A DNA stretch of 41,975 bases from an uncultured Acidimicrobiaceae bacterium (GTDB lineage: Bacteria > Actinomycetota > Acidimicrobiia > Acidimicrobiales > RAAP-2): assembly GCA_903873395.1 (NCBI GenBank), contig CAIQOJ010000068.1, positions 1-41,975 of the forward strand. Direction: 5' to 3'. The position numbers and the translations under genes were made by a program. Shown here piece by piece: positions 29,559-37,659 of the stretch. Each line of letters begins with the position of its first letter. The first letter of the stretch is position 1. The notes under the pieces are model-generated. The model was not told where the DNA came from and ran no database searches. It saw only the letters and a program-made list of their open reading frames with translations.

Positions 29559-31268
29559 TCAGGGGACCGTATAACTTGCTGCTGCCACCGCCGTGCCGTA
29601 CTTGGTCGAAACTGAGACCACACCAGAGGATGCCTTGGTGGACACCGTGGCCACAATTGTCGTAGCCGTGTCCGATGTCACAAGGGCCTTCTTCCCGCCG
29701 ATCAGCACTTTCTTGGCTGCAGCCAAGCCGGACCCGGAGATGGTGACGGAGACCGCACTGCCCTTCGCACCTGACGTCGGGCTGAACGAGGTGACCGTCG
29801 GGGCCACATGGAACGCCTTCGGACTCGTCGCTGTGCCCAGCGTGGTGACGACGGACACGACGCCGTCGACGGCAGCAGCCGGCACGGTGGCGACCACGGC
29901 CGAGTCAGTCGCCGAGACGACGGTGCCGGCCACTCCACCAAAGAGAACGTGGCTGGCCGAAGCCAAATTGGTTCCCGAAATCGTCACGTTTGCACCAGCC
30001 GTTGAGGCGCCAGGAGCCACGGACGTGATGGTGGACGAGTAGGTGAACGGCACCTCACCATCAACACAACTGCCCTTGCCGTTATTTGCCAGGTTTGACC
30101 ACATGCCTTGCACGGCAACGGTGCCAGTGGCCAGGGACAGGTTGAAGGCCGCTCCCGATGCCGAAGCCGCAAGGTACGAGCACATGTCGCCGATCTCGGC
30201 TCCCTTGATCGTCAACCAGCCAGGCGTAGGCGAGTAGCCGGGGAACTGATCAGTCAGCGTTTCGGCGTACTCGTGGCTGGCTGCCTCTGTGGCCCCATCC
30301 AGCGTTCCCGGGCTGTTTACCGAGGCCGCTCCGCAACTGGCTCCGGCGTCGGGAACGTAAGGGAGGTTCGTGAACGCCACCACCGGACCCGCCACTGGCC
30401 CTCCACCGGTGATGAAAGGATCTTCAGTGTCATCGTGATACGCGCAGTACCCGTACCTTGAATCGGCCCAGCCGTCTGGGTTGGTGCCGGTAGGTGAGAC
30501 GATGACGTACTGGGCGTTTCGGTTCGACGCCTGGGTGGTGTTTCCGAAGTGCGTTGCTGCAGCCTCAGCCTCAAGGGCCAGTTGGTTTCCGGTAGCTCCA
30601 GCCGCAGTTGCCGACGTGGCGGTAGTTGACGAGTCGAACCACACTCCCTGGAGTACCTGACCTGTCGGATAGGGGATGTTGGCATCACCCGGCGAGCAGC
30701 TCGCCGCCCCCGTGGCTGCGCCATCGCAGTACTGACTGAAGATGTTGCTCCAGGTCTCCCCGTTGGTGCCCAGCCCGGCGAAAAACGTCTGCAGGGCCGG
30801 GGCCATCTTGTTCGGATCACCGGTGAACGAGGTCTGACCTGCACTGTTCTGGCCAGCCGTTCCCCACTGACTCCCCATGAACACGAGATACACCTTCGGC
30901 TGACCAGTGGTCACACCGGCACCGAGCAGGGGGGCGGCAGAAGCACCCCCGCCGTAGCGAAGGGACTTGGCGCTGAGCGTCGACGATTCGTGTCTCGATG
31001 CCTTCTGCCTGTCCATGGTTGCTGCACTCACCCGGACGTGGAGGCGGCGAGGAACTGCACCGTGTCGATAGGCGTGATGATTGCCGGTCGGGTCGGTGAG
31101 AAGCACCGTGGTGCCCGTGGTGCCCGATGCCGTGGCCGCGGCCGCCACATCAGCCGGAGCCATCATGACTCCGGCCGCAAGCACCAGCGAAGCCATCGCC
31201 GCCGGAAGTGTCAGCACCGAGGTGAGCCCATGGCGCACGTTGACGTCCCCTGCCCGTCGCCTTCGCAC
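29559..31268 (-). CDS. Secreted metallopeptidase-like protein with two IPT/TIG domains
   Basis: 569 residues from GTG 31268; GGAGGA lies seven bases upstream. A signal peptide (LTLPAAMASLVLAAGVMM, then APADVAAAA) is followed by a pro-like region. The middle domain has KVYLVFMGSQWG, QGVWFDSS, and the motif ATEAASHEYAETLTDQFPGY with EIGDMCSYLA. This HEYxE...EIGD pattern is like the EXORDIUM-like or zinc-peptidase-like secreted proteins; true zinc-protease activity is unproven. Two IPT/TIG immunoglobulin-like repeats end it, ITSVAPGASTAGANVTISGT and VTSFSPTSGAKGSAVSVTISG. The final VSTKYGTAVAAASYTVP is typical of TIG. There is no anchor, so it is probably released. Confidence 0.75.
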   Translation of the reverse strand: MRRRRAGDVNVRHGLTSVLTLPAAMASLVLAAGVMMAPADVAAAATASGTTGTTVLLTDPTGNHHAYRHGAVPRRLHVRVSAATMDRQKASRHESSTLSAKSLRYGGGASAAPLLGAGVTTGQPKVYLVFMGSQWGTAGQNSAGQTSFTGDPNKMAPALQTFFAGLGTNGETWSNIFSQYCDGAATGAASCSPGDANIPYPTGQVLQGVWFDSSTTATSATAAGATGNQLALEAEAAATHFGNTTQASNRNAQYVIVSPTGTNPDGWADSRYGYCAYHDDTEDPFITGGGPVAGPVVAFTNLPYVPDAGASCGAASVNSPGTLDGATEAASHEYAETLTDQFPGYSPTPGWLTIKGAEIGDMCSYLAASASGAAFNLSLATGTVAVQGMWSNLANNGKGSCVDGEVPFTYSSTITSVAPGASTAGANVTISGTNLASASHVLFGGVAGTVVSATDSAVVATVPAAAVDGVVSVVTTLGTATSPKAFHVAPTVTSFSPTSGAKGSAVSVTISGSGLAAAKKVLIGGKKALVTSDTATTIVATVSTKASSGVVSVSTKYGTAVAAASYTVP

Positions 31269-34238: not shown

Positions 34239-35165
34239 TCATGCAGCAGTCAGGCCGATCGCCAACTCGGAATGGGCACGTCGCACTGCGGCAACCACTC
34301 TCTCAGAAGTCGCGCCGAGCAGTCGGTCGTCGATATCGACCATGCGCACCGTGGCAGCATCCGGCCACAGCCCGACCACACGAGCAGGCACTGGTCTCGA
34401 CGGCCATCGCAATCCGGCCACCAGGGCCGGGAAGGCCAACTCCTCCTGCCATAGCTCCCCCGGGCGACCCGACACCACCGAGATCAGCGCAACACTCGAT
34501 GTGTCCGCTGTACACCGGGGATCTTCGCTGGGAACACCAATGGTCTGGCGGTCACCAGCCTGGCTGTCATCAGAGGTGCCAGGCAGGCTGTAGGCGTCTC
34601 CCGCCAATACCACCTGGACGTCAGCTCGCCCTTTCAGACGCACCGTGCGCGGCCCCGGACAGGTCCAAAGATCGTTCGGAGCACCGAACAGGCATCGAGA
34701 GCCAAGTGCCGCCCAATCGAAGGCGACCCAGAGAGCACTCGCCCAGGTCACAGCCTCCGCCAAGACAACAGCGCGAGCCCCTGGCGCGAGACCTGCCAAC
34801 CACGGCTCCCAGTGATAGGTGCGCCATCCGGTCTGCCGCCAGCAGTCCAGAGCTTCGGCGACCACTGGTTCCGCCGCGGTCGCTGGAGCCTTGAAGCGCC
34901 CCTCTACGCAGGCCCGCACCAAGGCAAGCCCCAAGCTCCGGCGGACGAACGCCGGCTTCCACCGGAACTCCTCTGGCGCCGTTGGGTTGGACCATTGACC
35001 GTCGATGGAGGCGCCGGTGACCTCGACGAGCCCACCTGGTGCTGTGTGGGCCATCGCCTCGGCAACGGCAGCGACCAGGTGGTCTCGCACCACACCGATC
35101 TGGCGATCATGCTCCGGCACCGGTGCCACGAGGGCGCTGGCGCGGGCATGAGCCCGCCCGGTCAT
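34239..35165 (-). CDS. Unrecognised protein with degenerate RecB/PD-(D/E)XK-like core (partner B)
   Basis: 308 residues; ATG 35165 overlaps the stop of the next gene (ATGA). I do not recognise a family by name. Residues 174-290 look like a RecB nuclease core: TVRLKGRADVQVVL (motif II, D182), then SVALISVVSGRPGE (motif III position, with Ser229 and Val231 where D/E-x-K is expected), and EELAFPALVAGLRW then ARVVGLWP. The upstream gene has SVALVDVISGPRR in the same place, so the two are related. The N-terminal half contains a Trp-rich region (GWRTYHWEPWLAGL). The catalytic Lys is missing, so it is more likely structural or nucleic-acid binding than nuclease. It is translationally coupled to partner A. 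Confidence 0.6.
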   Translation of the reverse strand: MTGRAHARASALVAPVPEHDRQIGVVRDHLVAAVAEAMAHTAPGGLVEVTGASIDGQWSNPTAPEEFRWKPAFVRRSLGLALVRACVEGRFKAPATAAEPVVAEALDCWRQTGWRTYHWEPWLAGLAPGARAVVLAEAVTWASALWVAFDWAALGSRCLFGAPNDLWTCPGPRTVRLKGRADVQVVLAGDAYSLPGTSDDSQAGDRQTIGVPSEDPRCTADTSSVALISVVSGRPGELWQEELAFPALVAGLRWPSRPVPARVVGLWPDAATVRMVDIDDRLLGATSERVVAAVRRAHSELAIGLTAA

Positions 35166-36400
35166 GCGGCAACCTCGTGTCGAAACTGAGGCGCTCGTGT
35201 GATGTCATCAGAAAGCCCGACATACGGGTGATGTGCAGGGTCCGTCACTTGTTGGGGCCGATCAGCGAGGCCTTCTCCTTCCCCGAGGACAGTCATCCAT
35301 CCGACTGCATCAGTCGTCCGGGCCAGTGCGGCCAACGGTTCGGCCGCGCACGCAGGACAGCCATCACCCAGCGGCAGGGTCTCACCGGCCCGACAGCCTG
35401 CAACGGGCCGTCCCAGCACCTGGGAAACGAGCGCAGACATTCCGGCCAGTAGCCGTTGGGAAGCTGCCACCAAGATCTCCGGTGACACCGGATCCACATC
35501 CAGTTCGCCGGTTTGCGTGTAGTACGTCGCAGCAGCGAACGGCGAGGCCCCAGTGCGAAGCGTCTCCACCAATGCTTCAAGGTGGCGGTCAGCACGGTGC
35601 TCAAGACGGCGAGGCCCCGAGATGACGTCCACCAGTGCCACCGAACCTTCGGAGGCAGCGGGACGACCGATGACAAGATCCACACGGGTCATCAATTCGA
35701 CGGCGCCACCGGCCAAACCGGCCCGCAACACGTCCTTTGTCCGTGGCATCCATGCCGGGTCAAAGGTTGGCCAGCGGGCAAGGAGATCTTCGCTCTGGCG
35801 GCAGACCTCGGTCATCAGGCCGCCTCGCTCGGACTCCGACAGGTCGTTGATCCAGGCGACCAGCGGTGCCTGGTAGTCATCAATGGCCAATGCGGCCATC
35901 CCGTCTTCGATGGGATCGCCGATCGCCCCGGTGGTCACCAACTGGCGGAACAAGACATCTACGAGCGCCCCGCAAGCCATCGCCACCGTCAACGGCCTGG
36001 CCGATGGTGCGGTGAGTTCTCGGTGGCGTGCACAGATGAGCGCGCGCCGCAGGCGAGTGGGTGTGACGACGAGGCGATCGCGGTGACCGGTCGCAAAGGG
36101 ATCGGCCGGCGTGTCCGAGGTGCCAGGGGCCCACTCAAGGGCCAGCCGTTGCTCAAGCGCAGGAAGGCCGTCGGCGGACAGCCCCATGGCAGCCAGTCCC
36201 GAGTCGATGCCGGCCCCCAGTTCGGCGGCCAAGGAGGGATCTGCCTGTGGTCGTGCTCTGCCGGTCATGCGGAGTCGCTCGAGCAATCCTGGTCCAGCGA
36301 GCGGCGTCCCGTGAGAGCCGGTCATCATGCTTGGAGATGCAGCATGTGGTTCCGACGGGGAGATAACGGGCGAGGCACCACGTGTCGTCGGGGCGGTCAT
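35162..36400 (-). CDS. Unrecognised protein with RecB/Cas4-like fold and four-Cys pattern (partner A)
   Basis: 412 residues from ATG 36400; ATG 36406 and internal ATGs are alternatives, and no ribosome-binding site decides. From residue 110: LVVTPTRLRRALICARHREL (C123) resembles the opening of AddB/Cas4-type nucleases, and MACGALVDVLFRQLV matches the following G-xx-(V/H) helix. Core: MTRVDLVIGRP (D241), SVALVDVISGPRRLEHRADRH (D258, with Ile260 where Lys is expected). Then C336-x11-C348-x2-C351 near the C-terminus (GCRAGE...GDGCPACA). One early and three late cysteines is the arrangement that binds a 4Fe-4S cluster in AddB and Cas4. The catalytic Lys is absent. Divergent from a patatin gene. 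Confidence 0.6.
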   Translation of the reverse strand: MTAPTTRGASPVISPSEPHAASPSMMTGSHGTPLAGPGLLERLRMTGRARPQADPSLAAELGAGIDSGLAAMGLSADGLPALEQRLALEWAPGTSDTPADPFATGHRDRLVVTPTRLRRALICARHRELTAPSARPLTVAMACGALVDVLFRQLVTTGAIGDPIEDGMAALAIDDYQAPLVAWINDLSESERGGLMTEVCRQSEDLLARWPTFDPAWMPRTKDVLRAGLAGGAVELMTRVDLVIGRPAASEGSVALVDVISGPRRLEHRADRHLEALVETLRTGASPFAAATYYTQTGELDVDPVSPEILVAASQRLLAGMSALVSQVLGRPVAGCRAGETLPLGDGCPACAAEPLAALARTTDAVGWMTVLGEGEGLADRPQQVTDPAHHPYVGLSDDITRAPQFRHEVAA

Positions 36401-36425
36401 GAACATGGCGGCAGTCTGCAGGATG

Positions 36426-36440
36426 GGTGTTACAAACACC
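36426..36440. promoter_or_regulatory. 15-bp palindrome between divergent genes
   Basis: GGTGTT, ACA, AACACC: perfect 6-bp arms, between the partner A start (36400) and the patatin gene (36475). It is a plausible operator for either. Confidence 0.45.
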
Positions 36441-36474: not shown

Positions 36475-37659
36475 ATGACTCCCGCCGCCGCCAACACACT
36501 CTTCTTCGCTGTGTTCGGCGCAGCCACCATCGCCTTTGTCATCCTGGTCATCGTGACCTTTCGCTTCACGTGGGTCCGGATGACCGCTTCACGGAACAGC
36601 TGGCTGGACAGCCAGCACGGCCAGCCACTCGACGAGGAGGTTGACGGCGCTGACGGTACTGAAGACGAAGAAGAAGAGGAGGAGGAGCTGACCGCTCTCG
36701 TGCTGGCCGGAGGGAGCACTCGAGGAGCCGTGCAGATCGGCATGCTCCAGGTTCTGGCCGAACACGGGTTTCTTCCCGATCGGATCTACGGATCCTCGGT
36801 GGGAGCCATCAATGGCGTGGCCTTTGCCAACGATCCCACTGTGGCGGGGGTCGAGCACATGACCCGGGTTTGGAAGAGCGTCCGTCGACAGACCATCTAC
36901 CCCCAGGGTCGCCTCCACGGGCCATGGCTCTATCTCCAGCAGCGGGACTCGGTCTACTCCAACCTGGGACTACGCTCGATCATCGAAGAGGGCCTCACAT
37001 GCGAGCGCCTCGAAGAGATGGTCATCCCCGTCGAGGTGGTGGCCACATCGCTCACTGATGGCGGCGAGCACTGGTTCACTTCTGGTTCTGCTGTCGATGC
37101 TGTGTTGGCATCGACAGCCATGCCGGCCATCTATCCCCCGATGGAGATCGCCGGTGAGCGCTACATCGATGGCGGCGTGGTCGACAATGTGCCCATACAG
37201 CGGGCCATCGATGCGGGTGCCACTCGGATCGTGGTCCTCTTGTGCAGCCCACCGATCTTCTCCCCGCCTCGGTCCAAGCGCCCAGTGGAGGGGATGGTCA
37301 ACGCCTTGGTCATCGCCATCCACGCCCGGTTCGTGCGCGACATGGCCCACCTCCCCGAGGGCATTGAGGTCATCGTCTGCGTCGGCCCCGAAGATGCCAC
37401 CCGCGACTTCGACGATTTCTCCACGACGGAAGAGCTCATCGCCAAGGGTCGGGCAGAAGCCTCAGAAGTGGTCCGCCGCTACGGGCTGGGGACCATCCCT
37501 CACCCCGGGATCCCTCGTCCGGTCCCTGCTGACCCGCCACATGTGGACCCCAGCACATTGGACACTGGCGATCTGGATGCAAGCGGACCGCATCTGGGTG
37601 AACTGCATCTGGGGGAAGAGGACGCCGGGCCCACCGGCCCCGAGACCTTCGCCTCCTGA
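36475..37659 (+). CDS. Membrane-anchored patatin-like phospholipase
   Basis: 394 residues. An N-terminal helix (FFAVFGAATIAFVILVIVTF) and a run of acidic residues (about 56-71, mostly Glu and Asp) precede the patatin domain. The oxyanion loop is VLAGGSTRGAVQIGML, the nucleophile Ser is in IYGSSVGAINGVAF (G-x-S-x-G), and the catalytic Asp is in YIDGGVVDNVPIQRA (DGG). The active dyad is complete. It should hydrolyse acyl esters of lipids near the membrane. The C-terminus is Pro/Asp-rich. The substrate and the role of the acidic run are unknown. Confidence 0.9.
   Translation: MTPAAANTLFFAVFGAATIAFVILVIVTFRFTWVRMTASRNSWLDSQHGQPLDEEVDGADGTEDEEEEEEELTALVLAGGSTRGAVQIGMLQVLAEHGFLPDRIYGSSVGAINGVAFANDPTVAGVEHMTRVWKSVRRQTIYPQGRLHGPWLYLQQRDSVYSNLGLRSIIEEGLTCERLEEMVIPVEVVATSLTDGGEHWFTSGSAVDAVLASTAMPAIYPPMEIAGERYIDGGVVDNVPIQRAIDAGATRIVVLLCSPPIFSPPRSKRPVEGMVNALVIAIHARFVRDMAHLPEGIEVIVCVGPEDATRDFDDFSTTEELIAKGRAEASEVVRRYGLGTIPHPGIPRPVPADPPHVDPSTLDTGDLDASGPHLGELHLGEEDAGPTGPETFAS

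Follow-up and report, generated by a model that had tools for sequence, protein, structure and literature searches.

An overlapping pair of degenerate RecB/Cas4-type nuclease paralogues in Acidimicrobiales, with a possible role as a damage-induced DNA clamp

The window analysed here is one whole contig of 41,975 nucleotides (CAIQOJ010000068.1, assembly GCA_903873395.1; G000:C68 in our numbering) from an uncultured Acidimicrobiaceae bacterium, and its minus strand carries two overlapping genes, A (35162..36406) and B (34239..35165), that encode degenerate paralogues related to RecB- and Cas4-type nucleases. The explanation that we favour, and hold to be on balance probable, is that A and B form a pseudonuclease heterodimer of the DNA damage response that binds DNA without cutting it, and that the pair was duplicated from a single nuclease gene, here called S. 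A more specific version is tentative and may well be wrong, namely that in an Acidimicrobiales lineage an active four-cysteine exonuclease gave way to a damage-induced heterodimer of two dead RecB/Cas4-type nucleases, which acts as a clamp on DNA ends or single-stranded DNA in recombination. The sequences establish the homology, the distribution of S and of the pair in the genomes searched, the preserved gene order and overlap, the residue losses and a promoter match; the fold of A and B, their assembly into a complex, their binding to DNA and their induction are predictions. Inactivated RecB-like domains and nuclease/pseudonuclease pairs are already known kinds of protein. A literature search found nothing joining any two of RecB family exonuclease, PDDEXK and Acidimicrobi, and Acidimicrobi is unmentioned among the matches listed for the PafBC/RecA-NDp DNA damage response.

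Gene structure and homology

Gene A, a degenerate PDDEXK_1 (RecB/Cas4-like) paralogue of 414 aa, is read from the ATG at 36406, and gene B, a second and fully degenerate paralogue of 308 aa, begins within the end of A. At the junction, GCCGCATGACC, the TGA of A and the ATG of B overlap by four bases as ATGA, just as a first-pass annotation of this DNA had described. That annotation had also picked out a local core common to the two proteins, SVALVDVISG after TRVD in A and SVALISVVSG after GRAD in B, and had proposed RecB/Cas4-like cores for both; the motifs stand in the sequence as described, and the ancestry is supported by profile-profile comparison. When 35 A sequences were aligned with 36 B sequences by hhalign, the match had a probability of 98.4% (E 5e-15), and S matched A at 100% (E 7.8e-55, 297 columns) and B at 99.0% (E 5e-18, 264 columns). 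Eleven unrelated neighbouring gene families compared with S, A or B gave at most 1.3%, which argues that the shared core is not a chance resemblance. The window proteins themselves have no match in Pfam or NCBIfam (E up to 1) or in PHROGs or PADLOC (E up to 0.1), and among 35 A orthologues a direct PDDEXK_1 match was obtained for 7 (E up to 1; best 5.1e-10). A and B are thus placed by descent within the PD-(D/E)XK superfamily, in its PDDEXK_1 branch, the window copies by way of the profiles of their orthologues against S. The homology that links S, A and B is most simply explained if a tandem duplication of S gave rise to the pair.

A search of 61 genomes matched A in 53 and B in 36. The eight without an A match are G014 (with B at a contig end), G034, G040, G051, G055 (whose locus was later read as L115), G056, G057 and G060; one of them, G034, has neither gene. 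Fifty-four loci were read, the contig-end fragment of G004 not being among them, and these comprise 35 tandem A-B pairs (two from G008), one single frame (L107), one B alone at a contig end and 17 copies of the single gene S. The order of A and B, for which the first-pass annotation had proposed a neighbourhood search, is therefore widely conserved, and so is the junction: the start codon of B in the 4-nt overlap is retained in 35 of 42 A-B pairs, and B starts no more than 60 nt from the stop of A in all 42. A and B lie within one 746-codon frame at L107/L150, and L152 is a second such case, judged by its length and by having no separate B; these long frames look like A-B fusions. Paralogy in the hhalign comparison, adjacency, the overlapping start and the single frames together give A-B the gene arrangement of a nuclease/pseudonuclease pair. 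As a separate observation, one genome of the genus (G008) carries two A-B loci (L104 and L109), with the promoter element described below at both.

The single-gene relative S

Relatives in the order but outside this family mostly have one gene, S. All 17 members tested match PDDEXK_1 (Pfam, E up to 1; best 8.9e-15), and in the numbering of L082 the invariant residues are C80, H102, D196, D213-x-K215, Y230, C297, C300 and C306. This C/H/D/D/K/Y/C/C/C set is complete in 26 of 26 aligned rows, nine of which were picked from 27 matches above 278 bits in a class-wide scan of 148 genomes; the motif-I Glu is Glu in 21 rows and Gln in 5. S matches the phage exonuclease family phrog_69 in both members tested and is matched weakly by Cas4 models, and its profile found nothing among PDB sequences at E up to 1. 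Matches of S to DruK (PADLOC; best 8.6e-8, 2 of 2 tested) and to NCBIfam PLuB_AAA (7 of 17, best 1.5e-5) were taken as a shared PD-(D/E)XK signal and not as membership. S is thus apparently an intact four-cysteine PD-(D/E)XK nuclease.

The class-wide scan also found S-like genes in further families of the class, which suggests that S is the ancestral form, and S was not seen in that scan where the pair occurs. In family f1 the S profile gave one weak match (54-122 bits) in 11 of 12 genomes and none in the other. An extra S paralogue was encountered in family f27 (L117:8519-9511, genome G197); it keeps the four cysteines with a broken active site and lies near a gene that reads by eye as a type I restriction methylase, and the same genome has a 437-bit S-like match as well.

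Loss of active-site and cysteine residues

Residues were counted over 26 S rows, 43 A rows, 44 B rows and six rows (X) from early pairs, with 46 rows of A type in all. In the window, on the minus strand throughout, the motif I region of A is MACGALVDVLFRQ (35942..35980), in place of the G-x-x-x-H-K-A-x-E of S, with His replaced by Asp and Glu by Arg. The Asp residues of motifs II (Asp243, 35678..35680) and III (Asp260, 35627..35629) are retained, the catalytic Lys position is Ile262 (35621..35623) and the position of the invariant Tyr of S (LRFYAL) is Glu277 (35576..35578). The motif I region of B, FVRRSLGLALVRAC (34908..34949), has neither His nor Glu, and in its motif III Ser229-Val-Val231 (34473..34481) replaces D-x-K. 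Window A, with Asp and Arg at motif I followed by Asp and D-x-Ile, and window B, with no His, one Asp kept and S-x-Val, accordingly both fall short of an active nuclease site. The annotation had called the catalytic Lys lost from both proteins and the motif-III Asp from B, and these readings hold.

Across the rows, the motif-I His is present in 2 of 43 A and 1 of 44 B, and the motif-I Glu in none of the 43 A rows (Arg in 39), while the first Asp is kept in 41 of 43 A rows. In B, motif III has Asp or Glu in 0 of 44 rows. The catalytic Lys is found in 13 of 43 A rows, 16 of the 46 A-type rows and 1 of 44 B rows; the annotation's proposal to look for a Lys among homologues thus comes out differently for the two genes, the residue being nearly gone from B and not generally absent from A. 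With Lys present in 16 of 46 A-type rows, its absence from window A is lineage-specific. The rest of the site travels with the Lys: Tyr, D/E and an acid or His at motif I occur together in 14 of the 16 Lys-bearing A-type rows and in 1 of the 30 Lys-less rows.

The cysteines tell a related story. Cas4 and AddB have one early and three late cysteines, and substituting cysteines gave insoluble protein (PMC3466216). The same layout of one early and three late cysteines is present in 26 of 26 S rows. In window A, Cys125 (36032..36034) stands at ligand position 1 of the S family and Cys350-x2-Cys353 (35348..35359) at positions 2 and 3, and ligand position 4 is Ala359 (35330..35332). The four cysteines from which the annotation had proposed a 4Fe-4S set (C123, C336, C348 and C351 from an ATG at 36400, or C125, C338, C350 and C353 from the favoured ATG at 36406) do exist; on alignment, C338 lies off the ligand positions, and the proposed set is incomplete in the window. 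Cysteines 1 to 4 occur in 16, 18, 18 and 6 of the 43 A rows, all four together in 7 of the 46 A-type rows, and the late cysteines in 0 of 44 B rows. Given the insolubility of the substituted Cas4/AddB-type protein, A and B, if folded, would have to keep their fold by means other than the full cysteine set.

History of the pair

In three early pairs (L114, L115 and L116; families f20 and f26) the A-like gene encodes four cysteines and the site D/E, D, E-x-K, Y, and a degenerate partner comes after it; at L115 this partner was found by eye, and its profile matches S (93%, E 2.7e-7), whereas B gives 4.7% and no match. In a 72-row tree made by a quick method, with long branches flagged, the 20 B rows form a clade at 97 (starred) and the A clade stands at 81, and 20 A rows group with the three early A-like rows at 99 (starred). 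One duplication is likely to be shared by the early pairs, on their long branches, and the rest. In a tree of A alone, from which the motif columns were left out, six changes of the Lys state are counted, four or more of them on starred branches. The count cannot separate gain from loss; since S bears the Lys, repeated loss in A is the simpler reading. Where Lys and Tyr changed on independent branches, the changes agreed in an average of 2.3 of 4 pairs and were opposed in none, numbers too few for significance. Window A belongs to the dead class (H to D, K to I262, Y to E277, ligand 4 to A359). The simplest history would then be a duplication, an early death of B, a remodelling of A and thereafter the repeated death of A.

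The promoter region of A-B

Upstream of A lies a box, TGTAACACCC (36425..36434, minus), that resembles RecA-NDp, followed by a -10-like hexamer, CAGACT (36413..36418, minus), which ends 6 nt short of the ATG; A orthologues most often have CACACT here. The first part of the A frame could pass for a conserved peptide, V-x-P-x-x-H-T-x-x-M, but the conservation is that of the DNA, which reads TGT-N-ACA-N-CC-N6-CACACT-N6-ATG. The conserved spacing of box, hexamer and ATG across A orthologues places the start of A at 36406, and suggests that the A-B mRNA is leaderless. With up to one mismatch and the start codon included, the A-type element occurs 52 times in 36 of the 61 family genomes, and the reversed control 0 times. 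Of 43 cases of element plus gene that were read, 24 are A.

The remaining genes behind the CACACT element are varied. HD/HD_assoc phosphohydrolases, presumably of dGTPase type, have the leaderless A-B type element with the start codon 6 nt downstream at L190:861-2117, L226:253-1503 and L236:1966-3114 (Pfam, 3 of 3) and, by eye, at L158 and L221. A small protein ending W-(R/Q)-L-D-E-(H/R)-T-R-x-x-G-x-x-G-(I/V)-A-x-A-R-A-x-L is found behind it at L175, L187, L188, L189, L231 and, in the window's own genome, at G000:C118 (L232:2443-3006), with no Pfam match in three copies tested. A family of ~130 residues recurs in several genera (L199, L216, L227-L230, L239-L242), with no Pfam match in the one member tested, and a TY-Chap3 protein and an HNH protein also occur.

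The proposed link to the DNA damage response comes from recA of the genus, which has YGTCRCA(C/G)CC-N6-TA(G/C)GGT in 11 of 11 loci read (the contig-edge matches L256 and L257 not among them), with box and spacing that match those of A-B; the window A-B box has A in place of the first C of the recA box. A CGAAC-N4-GTTCG palindrome, which we take to be a LexA box, is visible by eye further upstream in 10 of the 11 loci. Across 14 genomes, TGTCACANCC-N6-TANGGT, with one mismatch allowed, was matched 47 times and its reversed control 5 times. Thirty of the 47 matched loci were read, and 20 of them (8 Pfam-checked) precede recombination or repair genes: 10 recA (two by leader sequence only), 5 genes with Pfam Mg_chelatase that we take to be ComM/YifB-like, 3 RecC, 1 RmuC and 1 RNase_T-type exonuclease. 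The other 10 comprise an ArdC-like frame, a methylase-like frame, frames without assignment and two loci without a long frame. For A regions, a scored promoter search recovered the element in 30 of 43, against 0.2 expected from shuffles; for S regions the figures are 6 of 26 against 0.1, and for B regions 1 of 43 against 0.2. Two WYL genes lie 0.9 kb from each other on a single contig of the window's genome, an arrangement that pafB-pafC would be expected to show. RecA-NDp has the consensus tTGTCRgtg-8nt-TannnT (PMC5656591) and is described as a LexA-independent, PafBC-dependent recA promoter (PMC5656591, PMC8223512). The element of recA and the other genes of the genus is in register with this published motif. 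The A-B element has the same register and spacing as those of recA, recC and the comM-like genes, but A promoters do not keep the C of TGTCR or the T of TAnnnT. WhiA was considered as a regulator and set aside: its site is given as GACAC (PMC4850268), and the G position varies in A promoters (AACAC in the window, CACAC and TACAC in others).

Alternative explanations

If the favoured explanation holds, tandem duplication of a single-domain, four-cysteine PD-(D/E)XK exonuclease-type gene S would have given A and B, with B first to become a non-catalytic partner. In some lineages A would still have an altered active site (D/E, D, E-x-K, Y), which would have gone from others, including that of the window. 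Translationally coupled, A and B would form a heterodimer, and in the window species a RecA-NDp/PafBC-type promoter would induce the pair along with recA and genes of recombination. The pair would use the old nuclease cleft, without cutting, to hold single-stranded DNA or DNA ends, or else to load a further enzyme of recombination or hold it back. The structural or DNA-end-binding role that the first-pass annotation had offered stays plausible.

Several observations weigh against this explanation. A has CACACT or CAGACT at its -10 in place of TAnnnT, the C of TGTCR varies among A promoters and is A in the window, and the scored search found the element in 0 of 6 early-pair rows; with such deviations, and with no element in the early pairs, the regulatory link could be wrong or partial. 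Moreover, the scored pattern was drawn up after the A and recA promoters had been seen, S regions hold no excess of the CACACT form of the -10 (1 of 26 at a score of 11 or more), and the small protein, the ~130-residue family, the TY-Chap3 protein and short frames behind that form have no known repair role. Ratios of nonsynonymous to synonymous substitution rates (dN/dS) in three of four more distant genome pairs, at 0.34-0.47 for A and 0.36-0.45 for B, point to moderate constraint only, and in the fourth (0.12 for A, 0.23 for B) dS is saturated.

Of the rival explanations, one holds that A-B still cuts DNA in the manner of XPF-ERCC1, with B as a regulatory partner and A as the nuclease, its site remodelled to an acid in place of the motif-I His, D, E-x-K and Y. 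The combination of acid or His, D/E, Lys and Tyr in 14 of 46 A-type rows, among them the early-branching L114, L115 and L116 with four cysteines, speaks for it, and the motif-I Glu that A is missing is Gln in 5 of 26 S rows, so that loss of the Glu alone need not kill activity. Such an active pair suits some relatives and does not suit window A, with Ile for Lys and Glu for Tyr, nor the 30 of 46 A-type rows without Lys, and we regard it as unlikely. We are similarly sceptical that A-B is a non-catalytic regulator that binds a recombination protein (RecBCD or a RecB-type helicase-nuclease) and not DNA. The absence of the catalytic Lys and motif-I His from window A and B would fit such a regulator, as would the same promoter box at RecC genes of the genus, but no helicase gene adjoins A-B in the genus loci read, an Lhr-type helicase being present only in 10 loci of other genera.

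It is very improbable that the two genes have lost all function and are now decaying, as their fast divergence, the repeated change of active-site and cysteine residues and the lack of both genes in G034 might suggest. The pairs were found as open frames with no read-through, by a method that would miss badly broken copies; the overlap start is kept in 35 of 42 pairs, the promoter is conserved, and in the closest genome pair dN/dS is ~0.19 for A and ~0.30 for B, as under purifying selection. Both genes, each in dead form, are also retained in 7 of 8 sampled genomes of genus g10, which are 1.5-2.2 Mb in size. That the SVALxxVxSG cores are a coincidence between unrelated folds can hardly be credited: the missing Pfam and NCBIfam matches of the window proteins would allow it, and the hhalign alignments to S over 297 and 264 columns, the clean negative controls and the direct PDDEXK_1 matches of 7 of 35 A orthologues speak against it.

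Comparison with known systems

XPF-ERCC1 is a nuclease/pseudonuclease heterodimer and, like A-B, a paralogous pair with a catalytically dead subunit; it belongs to another nuclease subfamily, whereas both A-B subunits look dead in many lineages. S matches both the PDDEXK_1 (PF12705) RecB-like nucleases and phrog_69, and A and B, which would derive from S, differ from PDDEXK_1 in that the window copies have lost the motif-I His and the Lys, and B the motif-III Asp as well, with no Pfam match at E up to 1. S likewise shares with the Cas4 and AddB iron-sulfur exonucleases one early and three late cysteines around a RecB-type core (PMC3466216), a set that is incomplete in window A and the late part of which is absent from B; no cas gene stands among the annotated neighbours. 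Cas4 and Csa1 are often-adjacent archaeal genes for related RecB-type, cysteine-bearing proteins (PMC3466216), as A and B are adjacent here, but those serve CRISPR adaptation, whereas window A and B are both degenerate and no CRISPR link was seen, no specific search having been made. The nearest functional precedent for the proposed role is RecC, whose RecB-nuclease-like domain is described as being without catalytic features and as forming a hoop for single-stranded DNA, so that an inactivated nuclease-like domain guides DNA (PMC1185551). Unlike RecC, A and B are small, stand-alone products of a tandem pair, in which no helicase domains were seen.

Neighbouring genes

Divergent from A is a patatin-like phospholipase gene (36475..37659, plus; Pfam Patatin 1.9e-34), which is context only; the patatin-like cluster is also close to A in 16 other loci, and in the genus loci of A-B the neighbours are patatin and acyl-CoA synthetase. 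In other genera, BipA/TypA-type and Lhr-type neighbours stand in place of the acyl-CoA synthetase, each neighbour family having been annotated from one representative. The BipA/TypA-type gene (f5) follows B on the same strand in 14 loci (L063-L067, L069-L076, L113), and the Lhr-type helicase (f9) lies upstream, within a few genes, in its 10 loci. Elsewhere in the window, 29559-31268 (minus) encodes a 569-residue protein with an IPT/TIG domain, the rest of its N-terminal part being without assignment.

Implications

If the tentative clamp version is true, the repeated loss of the catalytic Lys in A would mean that the conserved function of the pair is binding and not cutting. The genes described here form a natural series along which the promoter can be traced: a single-gene nuclease that is apparently intact, pairs in which one active site is plausible, and pairs in which both are dead. 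Such a series makes it possible to ask what part, apart from cutting, a Cas4/AddB-type nuclease plays in DNA repair. For this actinobacterial order, the likely RecA-NDp/PafBC-type regulon also gains an uncharacterised gene pair and some small genes of no assigned function.

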